A stretch of DNA of 64,000 nucleotides from Stella humosa (GTDB taxonomy: Bacteria; Pseudomonadota; Alphaproteobacteria; ATCC43930; Allostellaceae). The position numbers and the translations under genes were made by a program. This document shows positions 54,990 through 59,707 of the stretch, one piece after another; position 1 is the stretch's first letter, and each line of letters opens with the position of its first letter. The notes below the pieces were generated by a model that ran no database searches, had not been told where the DNA came from, and worked only from the letters and a program-made list of their open reading frames with translations. Location: assembly GCF_006738645.1 (NCBI RefSeq), contig NZ_AP019700.1, forward strand, positions 5,514,351-5,578,350, read 5' to 3'.

Positions 54990-55415
54990 TCACCCGGCTT
55001 CGGCCGTCTCCGGCTTGGCGACGGGTGCTGCTGCGGCCCGCCGGCGACCCGGCCGCGGGCGCTCTGCCGCGTCGAGCAGGCGGTGCATCGCTTCCACCGT
55101 GGCCGGCGACAAATGCCGCATGCTGCGCGCCATGCGGTTGGCAAGCTCGGTCGCGCGCGGGCCCAGGCCCGAAGTGTCGACCACGACGCGGGGATGCGAC
55201 AGGCGGGCGGCGCGCTCCAGCGCTTCGGCATCGTCCCAGATGATGCCGAAATATTCGCAGACCTGGATGAGGAGGGCGCGGCTCGGCCGTCCCTTGCGGC
55301 CATGCTCCAGCGCCGACAGGTAGGCGGCCGAGATCTGCAGGTCGCACGCCATCGCCTTCAGCGTGATGCCGCGCTCGGCGCGCAGGCCGCGGACGGCTTC
55401 GCCGAACGGCGTCAC
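54990..55415 (-). CDS. XRE family HTH regulator, last gene of the PqqD-HprK-GT cassette
   Basis: 141 residues starting at GTG 55415 (TPFGEAVRGLRAERGITLKAMACDLQISAAYLSALEHGRKGRPSRALLIQVCEYFGI). The HTH occupies ~1-62; the rest has RVVVDTSGLGPRATELANRMARSMRHLSPATVEAMHRLL and a basic, Ala-rich tail. The start overlaps the GT2 stop by 4 bases (GTGA), supporting both the start choice and coupling to the cassette. Related regulators also occur near hslU in other alphaproteobacteria, so its link to the cassette is not certain. Confidence 0.82.
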   Translation of the reverse strand: MTPFGEAVRGLRAERGITLKAMACDLQISAAYLSALEHGRKGRPSRALLIQVCEYFGIIWDDAEALERAARLSHPRVVVDTSGLGPRATELANRMARSMRHLSPATVEAMHRLLDAAERPRPGRRRAAAAPVAKPETAEAG

Positions 55416-56104
55416 GCCGGGCCGGCCCGGCGGCGATGCAGCGAGGCCCGAATCGCCCGCACATAGTCGAGCCGGCGGTCGTCGCCGCGGTGGCGGCCGA
55501 TGTTGGAGAGGTGCAGCCGCCGGTGCAGCACCACCTCCGGCAGCACGGCGTAGCGCAGACCGGCATCGGTCGCCCGCAGGGTCCAACTGATGAACTCCGC
55601 CACCCGCAGGTCCGTCTCGAACACGCCGATCTGCTCGAACACCGTTCGCCGCGCGACCATGGCGCCCGAGATCAGGGCTGGCATCGTGCCCTCGGGAACG
55701 TGCACGGTCTCGCGTTCCTCGGTCGACAGGTCCGGGCTGGCGAACTGGGCGGCGTGGCCGAACACCATCGCCAGCCCCGGGTCGCGGCGCAGCGGTTCCG
55801 TCAGCACCGAACAATGGTCGGGCGACCAGAGGTCGTCGGAATCGAGAAACGCCACATACTCCGAGGTGGTCTCCACCAGCGCGCGGTTGCGCGCGGCACC
55901 GATGCCGCCGGGCGGGATCACCAGGACCTCCGGCCGGAGTGGATGGCGCGCAGCGACGGAGCCGCTGTCGTCGGTCGAGCCGTCATCGACGACGATGACC
56001 CGGGCGGGCGGCTCGTCCTGCGCGGCAACGCTGTCCAGCGCCTCGGTGATGTAACGGGCACCGTCGCGGACGGGCATGATCAGGGTAAGAGAGCCGTCGG
56101 TCAT
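55412..56104 (-). CDS. GT2 family glycosyltransferase (second in cassette)
   Basis: 230 residues, GT-A fold. LTLIMPVRDGARYITEALDSVAAQ at the N-terminus, VVDDGSTDDSG, GIGAARNRALVE and the metal-binding FLDSDDLWSPDH. In the region where many GT2s have an ED base the sequence reads ETDLRVAEFISWTLRATDAGL, followed by LPEVVLHRRLHLSNIGRHR, an ending I associate with GT2s in small peptide/polysaccharide loci. No membrane segments. Donor and acceptor unknown. 4-base overlaps on both sides. Confidence 0.85.
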   Translation of the reverse strand: MTDGSLTLIMPVRDGARYITEALDSVAAQDEPPARVIVVDDGSTDDSGSVAARHPLRPEVLVIPPGGIGAARNRALVETTSEYVAFLDSDDLWSPDHCSVLTEPLRRDPGLAMVFGHAAQFASPDLSTEERETVHVPEGTMPALISGAMVARRTVFEQIGVFETDLRVAEFISWTLRATDAGLRYAVLPEVVLHRRLHLSNIGRHRGDDRRLDYVRAIRASLHRRRAGPA

Positions 56105-56874
56105 GCGCTGGAATCCACCTCGACGATGAACTCCTCCAGTCCCGGCAGGCGCGCCGGCGGGTTGGAGCGGCGTTTGCGCCGGGCCAGCGAGCGCGAGATA
56201 CAGGTGACGAATGCCTGCCGGAGGGTCACCCGGTCGCGCGTCATGTTGCCGTCATGCATGCGATACAACAGGACGAGCCGGCGCAGCACATGAAGCGCCG
56301 GCTCGCTTTCCAGGACGCGAAAGTACCAGTCCACGTCCTCGCCATAGCGCAACTCCTCGGCGAAGCCGCCCATCCGGTCCCAGAGCGACCGGCGAAACAG
56401 GGCCGCGCCCAGATGCGGGGCGAAGAACGCACCCTCCGGCTGGCCGACGGGTGCCCAGGCGATGACCGCCTCCGGGCTCGTGTACGCATACTGGATCTGC
56501 CCCATCACGCCCTCGACGGCCGGGCGATCGACCATATAGCGCAGCATCCAGTCGAGACGGCCGTCCGGCCATCGGTCATCGACGTCGAGAAAACCGATGA
56601 TGGGCGCGTGCGCCAGGCCGACGCCGGTGTTGCGGGCAGCACCCGGCCCGCGGTTGACGGTTCTCGTGGTGATGATCCGCCCGGCTGCGGCGAGCCCTTC
56701 GCAAAGGTCCGGCGTGGCATCGGTGGAGCCGTCGTCGACGACGACGATCTCGACTCCGCCCAGCCCCTCGGCCTCGATCATCTCGATCGCCCCCGGCAGG
56801 TGGGTCGCGCCGTTGTAGATCGGAATGACGATGCTGACGACCGGGCTGACGGCCGGAACCAGCGCCGCCGTCAT
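56101..56874 (-). CDS. GT2 family glycosyltransferase (first in cassette)
   Basis: 257 residues from the ATG at 56874. VSIVIPIYNGATHLPGAIEMIEAEG, VEIVVVDDGSTDATPDL, GPGAARNTGVGLA, FLDVDDRWPDGRLDWML, and an ED-containing acceptor motif GEDVDWYFRVLE. The C-terminus has RRLVLLYRMHDGNMTRDR. Soluble, cytoplasmic face expected. Overlaps the kinase stop and the next GT2 start by 4 bases each. The acceptor could be a protein, peptide or lipid-linked glycan. Confidence 0.87.
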   Translation of the reverse strand: MTAALVPAVSPVVSIVIPIYNGATHLPGAIEMIEAEGLGGVEIVVVDDGSTDATPDLCEGLAAAGRIITTRTVNRGPGAARNTGVGLAHAPIIGFLDVDDRWPDGRLDWMLRYMVDRPAVEGVMGQIQYAYTSPEAVIAWAPVGQPEGAFFAPHLGAALFRRSLWDRMGGFAEELRYGEDVDWYFRVLESEPALHVLRRLVLLYRMHDGNMTRDRVTLRQAFVTCISRSLARRKRRSNPPARLPGLEEFIVEVDSSA

Positions 56875-57920
56875 GGCGCCAGCCGCTCGACCAGGTCGGC
56901 CACCACCAGCGGCAGGCGCGCCAGGTCGGTACCGGCCGCCAGTTCGAAGCAGGGGACAGCCGCGCAGAGGCGGGTCAGCTTGGCCAGCGTGCCGGGCGCG
57001 CCGCCGGGCAGATGGGCCAGCGTCGTCGGCGCCAACGCCCGGATGGCGACGGCGGCCGGCACCCGGCGCAGGCTGGTCTCGACCAGCCCGGTCACGCGCG
57101 GCACGAGGATGGCGCGAATCGGCATCGATGCCACCAGCGCGTCGGGAAAGCCGTCCTGGCCGAAGACCAGCGCCTTCTCGGGCGGAACGCGGTCGGGATT
57201 CCAGACCCGTTGCGCCAGCCGCGGAAAGCGCCGCAGGGCGTCCTCGGTGAACTTGGCCGTGTTGTAGAGGCTGTGGACGGTCGGCTGCGGCCCGGTATCG
57301 ACCAGGACATAGTCGTCGCCGGCATAGGACAGGCCGCCCTCCAGGCAGGCGATGGTGGTGGTGGTCTTGCCGGCCCCACTGGGGCCGGTGACCAGCACGC
57401 CCGATCCCGGCCGGCCGACGGCACCCGCATGCACCGGCTGCAGCGTGCTGCCGGCCAGCGCCCAATGGAAGATCGGCCGGAACGGGAAGCTGCGCTCCCA
57501 GTAGGGCAACGGCCCGCGCATGTGATAGAGCGCCAGCCGGCGTTCCCGGTCCAGGACCGAGAGTGTTTCGGCCCCCAGTTGGTAGAAGGCATCGAACCCG
57601 TCGTCGGCATGGAGATCGATCTGGCCGCGATGGCCATAGGCGTCCGCCGGCCATGGTGCCGGCGGCAGGGCGCCATCGGCCTCGTCCCAGGCCTGGATGT
57701 CGAGGTCGGACGGGCCGTCATCGGGCAGGCGGATGTGGGCAAGCGCGGCATCGAGGGTCGCAGCGGCGGCTGCGCCCGCCGACAAGATCCGGAAGGCCCC
57801 GTTCCCCAGGCGATAGCGGCGCGCCACCAGGCCACGGGCCCTGGCCGCAGCCTCGAACACCGCCACGGAGTCGGCGAAGAACCCTTGCAGCGCCGGACGC
57901 AGGGACCCCGCAGCCGTCAT
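56871..57920 (-). CDS. HprK-like serine kinase domain protein
   Basis: 349 residues. The C-terminal half is an HPr kinase-like P-loop domain: LQPVHAGAVG at 160-169, Walker A GPSGAGKTTTT at 179-189, and the YAGDDYVLV acidic motif at 199-207. The N-terminal ~150 residues are family-specific with no recognised domain. No HPr or other PTS gene is near. HprK-like enzymes beside PqqD-domain proteins phosphorylate lasso peptides in some loci or belong to uncharacterised HPr-rel systems; the substrate here is unknown. Coupled by 4-base overlaps to PqqD and GT2. Confidence 0.82.
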   Translation of the reverse strand: MTAAGSLRPALQGFFADSVAVFEAAARARGLVARRYRLGNGAFRILSAGAAAAATLDAALAHIRLPDDGPSDLDIQAWDEADGALPPAPWPADAYGHRGQIDLHADDGFDAFYQLGAETLSVLDRERRLALYHMRGPLPYWERSFPFRPIFHWALAGSTLQPVHAGAVGRPGSGVLVTGPSGAGKTTTTIACLEGGLSYAGDDYVLVDTGPQPTVHSLYNTAKFTEDALRRFPRLAQRVWNPDRVPPEKALVFGQDGFPDALVASMPIRAILVPRVTGLVETSLRRVPAAVAIRALAPTTLAHLPGGAPGTLAKLTRLCAAVPCFELAAGTDLARLPLVVADLVERLAP

Positions 57921-58378
57921 GCCTTGGTCGCGGGATCGGGCAGGTCGGCGGCCTTTACCGGCCAGCCGACCTCGTCGACGTCATGCACCGGGTCGAGCGC
58001 CAGCAGTTCCTGGACGTCGGTGAAGCTCTGCAAGGTCAGCAGCTGCGTGAGGTCGGCCGGAAGCTGGGTGGACGGCGCCGGCTTGCCGGCCGGAACCGGG
58101 TCCGCCAGGGCCAGGTCCTCGCCGAGCAGCCCGGCCACGAAGGTATCTATCGCTGCGGCGGCTGTGTCGGCGGGCAGGGCTGCCTCGTCGGCGATGCGCC
58201 GCCGCAGCTCTGCCACCGTCGTGGAATCCACGATCTGCTGCCAGAGCACGGCGCCCACGCCCTGGAGGCTGTAGTAGGTACCGGACTTGAGGTTGATGAT
58301 GACGGCTTCGCCGTCGAGGGTCTCGTGAACGATCGGGTTGCCGCGGGCAACCAGCCGTGTGTCGTCGGACAGATACAT
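57917..58378 (-). CDS. PqqD-domain (RiPP recognition element) protein with acidic C-terminal tail
   Basis: 153 residues. Residues ~1-88 are a PqqD winged helix: LVARGNPIVHETLDGEAVIINLKSGTYYSLQGVGAVLWQQI, then TVAELRRRIADEAALP. PqqD domains present peptide substrates to modifying enzymes. Residues 91-153 form an extra tail with seven Ser/Thr and the acidic motif DVQELLALDPVHDVDEVGWP (121-140). There are no pqqA/B/C/E genes, so this is not PQQ synthesis. First gene of the five-gene coupled cassette, 44 bases after smr. Confidence 0.85.
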   Translation of the reverse strand: MYLSDDTRLVARGNPIVHETLDGEAVIINLKSGTYYSLQGVGAVLWQQIVDSTTVAELRRRIADEAALPADTAAAAIDTFVAGLLGEDLALADPVPAGKPAPSTQLPADLTQLLTLQSFTDVQELLALDPVHDVDEVGWPVKAADLPDPATKA

Positions 58379-58422: not shown

Positions 58423-58986
58423 CTAGCGGCGGCGGCGCAACAGCAAATATAGGGCACCGCCCCCGCCATCGCGGGGCTGCGCCTCGGTATAGGCCAGGAC
58501 GTGCGGGCGGACCGACGGCTCGTTCAGCCAGCGCGGCACCATGCGGCGCAGGACCCCGCGCTCGGCCGGGCTGCTGTTCCAGCCGCCGCGGCCGGTGATC
58601 AGCAGGATGCAGCGCCGACCCTGCGCCACGGCCGACAGGATGAAGCGATGCAGCGCCGAATGGGCCTCGGCCTGGGTCAGCCCGTGCAGGTCGAGCCGTC
58701 CGTCGATCGCCATCCGCCCGCGCTTCAGCCGCTCCACCGAGCGCGCGTCGACATCGACCGCGGCTCCGGCCTCGAGCGCGACCGGCGAGCGGGCCACCGG
58801 CCGGATCGCCGGCGATGGGGCGGGTGGCCGGCGGGCGTGATCGGCCGGCCGCGCCGGCGCCGCCGGCGGCGGCACCGGCAAGGCCGGCGGCTTGGCCGGT
58901 GCTAAAGCCGGGCGGCCGGTGGCACGCCGGGGCAGCGGAACGACATCGGCGACTGCGCGTCGCCAGAGGTCACGGTCGCGCGCCAT
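58423..58986 (-). CDS. Smr domain protein
   Basis: 187 residues from the ATG at 58986 (MARDRDLWRRAVADVVPLPRR); an ATG at 58998 would add four residues. The middle is Pro/Ala-rich and probably disordered. The C-terminal Smr domain has IDGRLDLHGLTQAEAHSALHRFI and CILLITGRGGWNSSPAERGVLRRMVPRWL, the LDLHG and TGRG motifs of the MutS2-type nuclease domain. The substrate (DNA or RNA) is unknown. The start lies inside the lutC coding end (17-base overlap). Confidence 0.9.
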   Translation of the reverse strand: MARDRDLWRRAVADVVPLPRRATGRPALAPAKPPALPVPPPAAPARPADHARRPPAPSPAIRPVARSPVALEAGAAVDVDARSVERLKRGRMAIDGRLDLHGLTQAEAHSALHRFILSAVAQGRRCILLITGRGGWNSSPAERGVLRRMVPRWLNEPSVRPHVLAYTEAQPRDGGGGALYLLLRRRR

Positions 58987-59707
58987 CGATAGGGGCACCG
59001 GCGCGGCGCTGCTCGATGAGGACGATGTGCAGGCGACGCGGACCGTGGGCGCCGAGCTGGATCTTCTGTTCGATGTCGCCGGTGCGCGACGGGCCGGTCA
59101 CGAAGTTGACGGTGCGCGGCATGCCGCCGCCGGCCGCTGCCTGCCAGGCCCGGAGGCGGCCCCATGCCGTCTCGTACGGGCCCACCACCTGGTCTGCGTA
59201 GAGCACGACGATATGGGTGTCGGGCAGGAAGTTCAGCGTCGTCGGGCGGTCCGCACCCGAGGCCAGCATGAGGGTGCCGGTCTCGGCGATGCCGGCGAAG
59301 GCCGGGGTCAGCGACACCGGGTCGTCGCCCTGCGAGCGGCCGCGATGGATCGACAGCAGCGGCCGGTCCTGCCAGGGAATCGCATCGAGTGCGGGATCGG
59401 GCGACATGACGATGTCGGTCGGCAGATTGTGGCGGGCAAGATACTCGGCCACCACCCCGGGGACGGCGGCTTCGTCCGGCACCCGGTCGACGGTGGTGCT
59501 GACCATCTCTGCCATCTCGACGAACAGGTCGAGCACGGCCGCCGGGGCCCGGTCGGTGCGGGCGGGGATCAGGTTGGCTGGATGCTCGGCCAGCCGGCGT
59601 TCCAGCGGCTCGGCCGCGGCACCGGTGATCGGGCCGCGGCCCAGCGCGCGGCGGACCGCCCCCAGCATCTGGCTGCGGGCGCTGGCGCCCGGCTTGGCAT
59701 CGGTCAT
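58970..59707 (-). CDS. lutC: Lactate utilization protein LutC
   Basis: 245 residues, LUD domain: VMSPDPALDAIPWQDRPLLS, GIAETGTLMLASGADRPTTLNFLPDTHIVVLYADQVVGPYE, and the closing FVTGPSRTGDIEQKIQLGAHGPRRLHIVL. It is a subunit of the iron-sulfur L-lactate oxidation complex LutABC. The ATG at 59707 overlaps the lutB stop by 4 bases. Confidence 0.94.
   Translation of the reverse strand: MTDAKPGASARSQMLGAVRRALGRGPITGAAAEPLERRLAEHPANLIPARTDRAPAAVLDLFVEMAEMVSTTVDRVPDEAAVPGVVAEYLARHNLPTDIVMSPDPALDAIPWQDRPLLSIHRGRSQGDDPVSLTPAFAGIAETGTLMLASGADRPTTLNFLPDTHIVVLYADQVVGPYETAWGRLRAWQAAAGGGMPRTVNFVTGPSRTGDIEQKIQLGAHGPRRLHIVLIEQRRAGAPIDGARP

Follow-up and report, generated by a model that had tools for sequence, protein, structure and literature searches.

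A four-gene PqqD, kinase and glycosyltransferase cassette of Stella humosa as a possible component of a dispersed system for peptide or protein modification

Introduction

The closest described relatives of the system considered here are peptide pathways in which a kinase resembling HprK is accompanied by a nucleotidyltransferase. In the LPP system of Bacillota, published in May 2026 in Nat Commun, the core is made up of a RiPP recognition element (RRE; RiPP, ribosomally synthesized and post-translationally modified peptide), an HprK-like kinase, a nucleoside triphosphate (NTP) transferase and an MsbA-like transporter; the system also has separate precursors with a YxxP motif and an SpI peptidase, and the kinase, LppK, phosphorylates a Ser of the core (PMC13381572). 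Among lasso peptides, the kinase BsfK phosphorylates Ser3 of its precursor (PMC10368454), the importance of the His-Lys-Asp-Asp residues of such kinases has been demonstrated by mutation and, in pseudomycoidin, the addition of hexoses to phospho-Ser requires the nucleotidyltransferase PsmN (PMC9266682); a 2020 listing includes lasso clusters of rumen Butyrivibrio in which genes for an HPr kinase, a nucleotidyltransferase and a GT2 occur together (PMC7533575). The present work concerns a cassette of four overlapping genes, encoding a PqqD-type (RRE) protein, an HprK-like kinase and two family 2 glycosyltransferases (GT2), GTa and GTb, in a stretch of 64,000 nucleotides from Stella humosa (the window; contig NZ_AP019700.1, positions 5,514,351 to 5,578,350). 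The genome of this star-shaped soil bacterium comprises 5,832,650 bp in one contig. Judged by sequence, the four genes form a real and conserved unit, which may be the main part of a dispersed peptide- or protein-modifying system.

Relation to described systems

The likeness to LPP comprises a discrete RRE (PF05402 over its cut-off, with a predicted fold closest to that of TbiB1), an HprK-like kinase (with an invariant His-Lys-Asp-Asp set and a predicted fold like that of phosphoenolpyruvate carboxykinases, PEPCKs) and, less clearly, an NTP transferase, for which Stella has a PF14907 pair encoded elsewhere in the genome and not beside the cassette, whereas in 16 of 24 related loci a PF14907-type gene is found beside the PqqD gene. 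To this are added a YxxP-type motif and, in the forms from Bacteroidota and from the cyanobacterium Crinalium, an ATP-binding cassette (ABC) exporter. LPP, in contrast, has separate YxxPxVLxHQxIxFETxxS precursors and an SpI-type peptidase, and since neither was found beside the cassette, the module is not filed as LPP; it differs also in having a GT2 gene at every locus, an RRE with a conserved tail (the tail of LppB was not part of the comparison) and Gram-negative hosts. The LPP precursor motif was not recognised near the cassettes in a looser scan of 21 regions, the rest of the genome not being searched. Likewise, no SpI-type peptidase is present in the cassette or in a six-gene Bacteroidota unit, whose genes have other assignments (no search with an SpI model was made, nor of the rest of the genome), and no B2 protease or macrolactam synthetase in the scanned window cassette with its neighbours or in the annotated Crinalium stretch, the genomes and the other loci not being searched for them.

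With lasso tailoring (paeninodin, pseudomycoidin), the module has in common the His-Lys-Asp-Asp kinase, a nucleotidyltransferase partner, a B1-type RRE and, sometimes, GT2 enzymes (PMC9266682, PMC7533575). In contrast to those clusters, no lasso precursor, B2 protease or cyclase was recognised in the window cassette or the six-gene Bacteroidota unit, and the lasso PqqD models NF033536 and NF033530 remain below cut-off for the window PqqD (39.1 vs 80 and 28.7 vs 70 bits). The HPr-rel-A and HPr-rel-B systems (TIGR04352, TIGR04355), to which the first-pass annotation, made from the window sequence alone, had pointed, resemble the cassette in their HprK-related kinase, and they include a PqqD protein as well. 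The model comparison did not bear that relationship out: the window kinase reaches 19.5 (TIGR04352) and 20.9 (TIGR04355) bits against cut-offs of 200, and the kinases of Chitinophaga and Crinalium 31.9 and 38.7 bits with TIGR04352. The models ScmC and ScmD, two partners from the SynChlorMet cassette (TIGR04249, TIGR04248), are weakly matched by the kinase and the PqqD protein (16.5 vs 125 and 24.7 vs 100 bits), and both GT2 enzymes have their top NCBIfam score with MftF of mycofactocin (TIGR03965; 69.1 and 71.3 bits vs a cut-off of 280), which likely represents generic GT2 likeness; mycofactocin also uses a PqqD-like protein, but the cassette holds no radical S-adenosylmethionine gene.

The initial impression that the locus fits no familiar RiPP class is thus weakened by the LPP core and the rumen lasso clusters, while the tail and the missing precursor and peptidase still set it apart. 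RRE-glycosyltransferase fusions occur in candidate new clusters of the RRE-Finder paper, from whose main text the word "kinase" is absent, and the open-licence literature, searched by title and abstract, yielded lasso, LPP and general papers but none on a tailed PqqD with paired GT2s.

Conservation of the module

The neighbourhood check that accompanied the original proposal speaks for a conserved module whose genes travel together: among 24 loci with a tailed or short-tailed PqqD, a GT2 gene is present at all 24, the kinase at 19 and a PF14907-type gene at 16 (mostly by tblastn). These are not independent cases, because the Bacteroidota loci (four), the Stella loci and the g288 loci (three) are close relatives. 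The order of the four genes is more than chance, since it is met again, at kinase identities of about 30-42%, among other Alphaproteobacteria, in another class of the phylum and in Bacteroidota. A kinase scan of the genome collection gave six relatives, two of them from Stella and four from Bacteroidota (30-34% identity); at the latter four loci the genes encode PqqD, kinase, GTa, GTb, ABC transporter and PF14907 nucleotidyltransferase, in that order (assigned by Pfam on L008 and, for the other loci, through 76-97% identity).

Within the class, a strong kinase match (E <= 1e-15) was obtained in seven of 385 genomes, two being Stella, and all seven carry a tailed or short-tailed PqqD at the same locus. 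At E <= 1e-5 the count is 20 of 385; from the 13 weaker cases two loci (L040, L041) were looked at, leaving out the other 11 and the order-level genomes G004 and G010, and both have a PqqD without tail and a kinase also below the HPr-rel cut-off (37.9 and 46.2 bits). A profile of the tailed PqqD matches through the tail in six of 385 class genomes and into a shortened tail in three more; across the phylum it was found in six of 398 genomes, one of another class. The candidates scored per genome were at most 5 for the kinase in the class, 10 for the tailed-PqqD profile in the class and 9 for the same profile in the phylum. In L037, L038 and L105, the shortened tail ends in LDPPLP and two PF14907-type genes are present, together with a kinase and a GT4 gene in L037 and L038.

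A rearranged module is located on the mobilizable plasmid pCRI9333.04 (L108) of the cyanobacterium Crinalium epipsammum, with genes for PqqD, nucleotidyltransferase, HPr kinase, FkbM and a glycosyltransferase and, farther along, a nucleotidyltransferase and an ABC transporter. This location gives a hint of horizontal transfer, and the four-gene unit is probably transferable. In plasmid searches, the window PqqD gave no match at E <= 1e-6, the window and Crinalium kinases matched Crinalium alone, and the Crinalium PqqD matched Crinalium plus, weakly, one Tistrella sequence.

Distribution of the parts in Stella

In S. humosa, ATCC 35155 and the metagenome-assembled genome (MAG) SJ646, the parts are spread over three unlinked loci: the cassette, a second locus of the order GT4-PqqD-GTa-GTb and a third that holds a pair of PF14907 genes. 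The statement that no nucleotidyltransferase is present is consequently true beside the cassette and no longer so for the genome. All three loci are jointly absent from the fourth genome, that of S. vacuolata, which upon searching gave no match for the kinase or for PF14907 and, for the tailed PqqD, only a 26% match in the PqqD region (E = 0.004) that reaches no NCBIfam model at E <= 1e-4. At its third site, the flanking genes and a trypsin-like protease are retained and the nucleotidyltransferases are gone; the counterpart site of the second locus was not located in two stretches near 1.58 Mb or in L073. In a tree of mltA, lutB, lutC, smr and xre, five genes of a single locus, S. vacuolata pairs with S. 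humosa (support 0.959), and because of this placement the joint loss of the three loci in S. vacuolata is likely and the simpler reading, although four genomes make it suggestive only.

Some neighbours of these loci were considered as further components. The trypsin-like protease gene, which lies between the two PF14907 genes (L119, 10022-10885), was rejected as a system-specific leader peptidase because S. vacuolata keeps it (L153) without the nucleotidyltransferases. Small, apparently secreted DEGKFG-repeat proteins are encoded at L043 11252-11587 (about 1.5414 Mb in S. humosa) and at other sites, the four Stella genomes having 11, 7, 5 and 9 matches; the one beside the second locus was discarded as a substrate, several matches being found also in the Stella genome that lacks the system. 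A 792-residue protein, also beside the second locus (L043 3507-5885) and matching no Pfam family at E <= 0.001, is present in ATCC 35155 too and was not found in the SJ646 region.

The PqqD protein and its tail

The AlphaFold model of the window PqqD has a mean predicted local distance difference test (pLDDT) score of 81.0, and beyond residue 120 successive blocks fall to 63, 55, 55 and 40. Its best structure match, and the sole one with E below 0.001, is TbiB1, a lasso RRE solved with its leader (5v1v_A, E 2.4e-4), so that the peptide-presenting role first ascribed to the protein gains plausibility from the predicted structure.

The tail is conserved beyond the domain itself, with a mean majority fraction of 0.68 for residues 118-141 vs 0.46 for residues 14-92 among 21 full-tail proteins. 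D129, H132, G138, W139 and P140 are identical in all 21, and P130 in 20 (the count leaves out the short-tail proteins of G208, G304 and G380; G271b, missed by the automatic tail pattern, was included by eye). No Ser/Thr column is conserved at 80% in this set, for which reason the suggestion that PqqD itself is the phosphorylation target is unsupported, and a phosphoprotein with a conserved Ser/Thr acceptor was ruled out.

Discrete lasso RREs recognise [Y/W]xxPx[L/V/I/F/A] (PMC13381572), and 17 of the 24 PqqD proteins carry a leader-like motif, [YFL]xxPx[LIVMYF]xx[YF], in their 60 C-terminal residues, ahead of the conserved segment. In 500 shuffles of the tails it was obtained 0.19 times on average and three times at most, relatedness being ignored in the shuffling. 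Its first position is mostly Phe, vs the Tyr/Trp of known leaders, a stricter count gives eight of 24 (about two of them off the aligned position), and it is missing from the three Stella cassette-1 proteins, from G522 and from the three g288 proteins.

The cassette genes and their neighbours

Features of the cassette and of the adjoining genes, with positions in the window
Feature	Position	Strand	Basis
PqqD-type (RRE) protein with C-terminal tail, 153 residues	57917..58378	-	PF05402 44.3 bits; model best matches TbiB1 5v1v_A
Conserved PqqD tail, residues 118-141, containing FTDVQELLALDPVHDVDEVGWP (residues 119-140)	57956..58027	-	Alignment of 21 full-tail homologues
HprK/PEPCK-fold kinase, 349 residues; H164, K185, D202, D203	56871..57920	-	Invariant residues; predicted PEPCK-like fold
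GTa, GT2 glycosyltransferase, 257 residues, motifs FLDVDD and GEDVDW	56101..56874	-	PF00535 82.6 bits; motifs
GTb, GT2 glycosyltransferase, 230 residues, motif FLDSDD; AEFISW replaces GEDVDW of GTa	55412..56104	-	PF00535 86.5 bits; motifs
XRE regulator, resident partner of smr, outside the cassette	54990..55415	-	smr-xre adjacency in 19/22 genomes
Smr-domain protein, its gene 44 bp upstream of pqqD and parted from xre by the cassette	58423..58998	-	PF01713 81.0 bits; undivided smr-xre junction in S. vacuolata

All five open reading frames (ORFs) of the first-pass annotation and their four 4-base overlaps are present in the sequence (ATGA at 57917-57920, 56871-56874 and 56101-56104; GTGA at 55412-55415), and the PqqD and both GT2 assignments are upheld by Pfam scores above the cut-offs (23.4 bits for PF05402 and 23.3 for PF00535), as is that of the XRE protein to HTH_19 (40.0 vs 30.2 bits). 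Four-base overlaps are commonplace in bacterial operons and hence do not imply, as had been supposed, that the products are made in a fixed ratio.

The kinase matches HprK_C only over residues 163-209 and below the cut-off (19.2 vs 33.3 bits), and the best E obtained with its sequence against the PDB is 0.066 (0.079 for HprK, over the P-loop only). The best AlphaFold model has a mean pLDDT of 81.6, within a wide range of 81.6 to 43.5 over five models, and its best 50 Foldseek matches are all PEPCKs (E about 1e-8 to 1e-7, template modelling scores of 0.45-0.56 by query), with no HprK among these 50. HprK and PEPCK share one superfamily; the label of HprK-like kinase is thus in keeping with the predicted fold and falls short at the level of the Pfam family. 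His164, Lys185, Asp202 and Asp203 are invariant in all 19 homologues aligned, a set without lasso kinases, and because of this there is no sign of the inactive P-loop that would have told against the proposal: the kinase looks active, and its four residues are placed around the P-loop like the His-Lys-Asp-Asp set of lasso kinases, to which they probably correspond.

The XRE gene had been counted as a fifth cassette member. In a search of 43 genomes of the order, smr is present in 34 (E <= 1e-10); an XRE match at E <= 1e-5 was obtained in 23 genomes, of which 22 reach E <= 1e-30. In 19 of these 22 the two genes are neighbours (no more than about 18 bp apart, judged by eye from the coordinates), with coinciding match ends in 12, among which is S. 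vacuolata, whose undivided junction has the genes overlapping by GTGA; the remaining three are the Stella genomes in which the cassette sits between smr and xre. In S. humosa and ATCC 35155 the end of GTb shares a GTGA with xre, whereas in SJ646 this overlap is missing and two GTa-type genes are present (L045 2396-4520). Because of the adjacency elsewhere, split by the cassette only in three Stella genomes, and of the missing overlap in SJ646, XRE was ruled out as a member; smr and xre are an old pair, and the cassette, on these gene arrangements, comprises four genes flanked by a resident regulator.

Proposed function and alternatives

The reading that we prefer, tentatively and at slightly less than even chances, is that the cassette supplies the greater part of a dispersed system for modifying a peptide or protein, akin to the phosphorylation-glycosylation half of LPP and pseudomycoidin biosynthesis. 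We infer a series of steps in which the PqqD protein would hold the substrate and gather the enzymes via its conserved tail, the kinase would phosphorylate a Ser/Thr of the substrate, the PF14907 nucleotidyltransferase, encoded elsewhere in Stella and next to the cassette in the majority of the related loci, would attach an initial sugar to that phosphate, for the GT2 pair to extend; the second locus of S. humosa might draw on the kinase and the nucleotidyltransferases as well. In favour of this reading are the order PqqD-kinase-GT2-GT2 kept in distant lineages, accompanied by the PF14907 gene and, in Bacteroidota, by an ABC exporter, the invariant kinase residues, the TbiB1-like model of the PqqD protein, the composition of the LPP core, the requirement for PsmN in pseudomycoidin and the joint absence of the three loci from S. 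vacuolata. By analogy, the module most simply, and likely, works like LPP or lasso tailoring, in a new setting.

Several points weigh against this proposal. In the model systems, LPP glycosylation is only predicted and the final product has not been identified (PMC13381572), and for PsmN a host enzyme adding the sugar is left open in the review consulted (PMC9266682). The kinase is absent from five of the 24 loci (the three Stella second loci, G049 and G380) and the PF14907 gene from eight, and the flanks of the cassettes, which are highly diverse, do not prove a peptide substrate. Of the Bacteroidota loci, L009 has only the six module genes in common with L008 or L010, and L009 and L011 have common flanks. 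The joint absence in Stella is one event in four genomes, set on a tree of five genes from one locus. No peptidase gene is found among the four cassette genes, and as to a separate YxxP precursor, the scan of 21 regions (ORFs of 30-200 residues with [YW]xxPx[LVIFA] in the first 45) returned 38 matches in 15 regions, some of them lying over cassette genes in a different frame, which were judged by eye, without shuffle control, to be chance.

That the genes are chance operon neighbours with no common function is hardly credible: the loci devoid of kinase would agree with it, but distant phyla, whose kinases are about 30-42% identical, keep the order amid different flanks, and a rearranged set resides on a mobilizable plasmid. 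GT2 enzymes are often glycan builders, and it is conceivable, though somewhat unlikely, that a small molecule or a surface polysaccharide is what the kinase, the nucleotidyltransferase and the GT2s modify, with PqqD as a regulator or carrier protein; the G522 cassette is near an apparent O-antigen-type ABC pair (by eye) and further GT2-like matches, and the second Stella locus is beside a PMT_2 membrane protein (30.0 vs 26.1 bits) and a weak extra GT2 match. However, in the three g288 genomes the unit is near an apparent sugar ABC transporter operon (by eye) and not a polysaccharide cluster, and in the cases consulted the lasso-type RREs and HprK-type kinases of comparable clusters act on peptides (PMC9266682, PMC13381572). 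Could the cassette instead be one portion of a lasso or LPP pathway, with the precursor, the protease and the cyclase encoded at other sites in S. humosa? The types of RRE, kinase and nucleotidyltransferase are in common, rumen lasso clusters can hold GT2 genes, and Stella already scatters components over three loci; nonetheless, the recurrence in Bacteroidota of a compact unit without precursor or protease and the low scores with the lasso PqqD models make this quite improbable.

An RRE-precursor fusion, in which the PqqD tail is itself the substrate, with the YxxP-like start as leader and D..H.....GWP as core, modified while tethered into a fixed cofactor- or tag-like product, is also unlikely. 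It would agree with the frequency of the leader-like motif over shuffled tails (relatedness aside), with a tail conservation exceeding that of the RRE core, with the similarity of the model to a leader-bound lasso RRE and with the lack of a separate precursor recognised near the cassettes. Nevertheless, the acceptor expected for an HprK-type kinase is missing from the 21 full-tail proteins, the PqqD C-termini are variable and the cassette has no leader peptidase; in addition, the motif is lacking in seven proteins, the Stella cassette-1 ones included, and mostly starts with Phe, and the pLDDT drops past residue 120. A more specific form, which we rate as slightly less probable again, is that the core of the tail is converted on its carrier by the kinase, the nucleotidyltransferase and the GT2 pair into a phospho-glycan tag or cofactor in at least three phyla, the leader being gripped by its own or a neighbouring RRE; since no Ser/Thr is conserved, the acceptor would be an unusual residue (Asp129 or His132).

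Significance

Under the preferred reading, that of a dispersed modifying system, the kinase-plus-nucleotidyltransferase chemistry of Bacillota lasso and LPP peptides would reach into Gram-negative phyla, as a compact unit for which no precursor has been recognised. The type of chemistry is already known, and what is likely new relative to LPP and lasso tailoring is the conserved PqqD tail, the setting and the failure to find a precursor or a peptidase next to the cassette. S. humosa, with the system, and S. vacuolata, without it, provide a ready comparison pair, and the tail, conserved across three phyla, offers a testable handle on the target of the unit.

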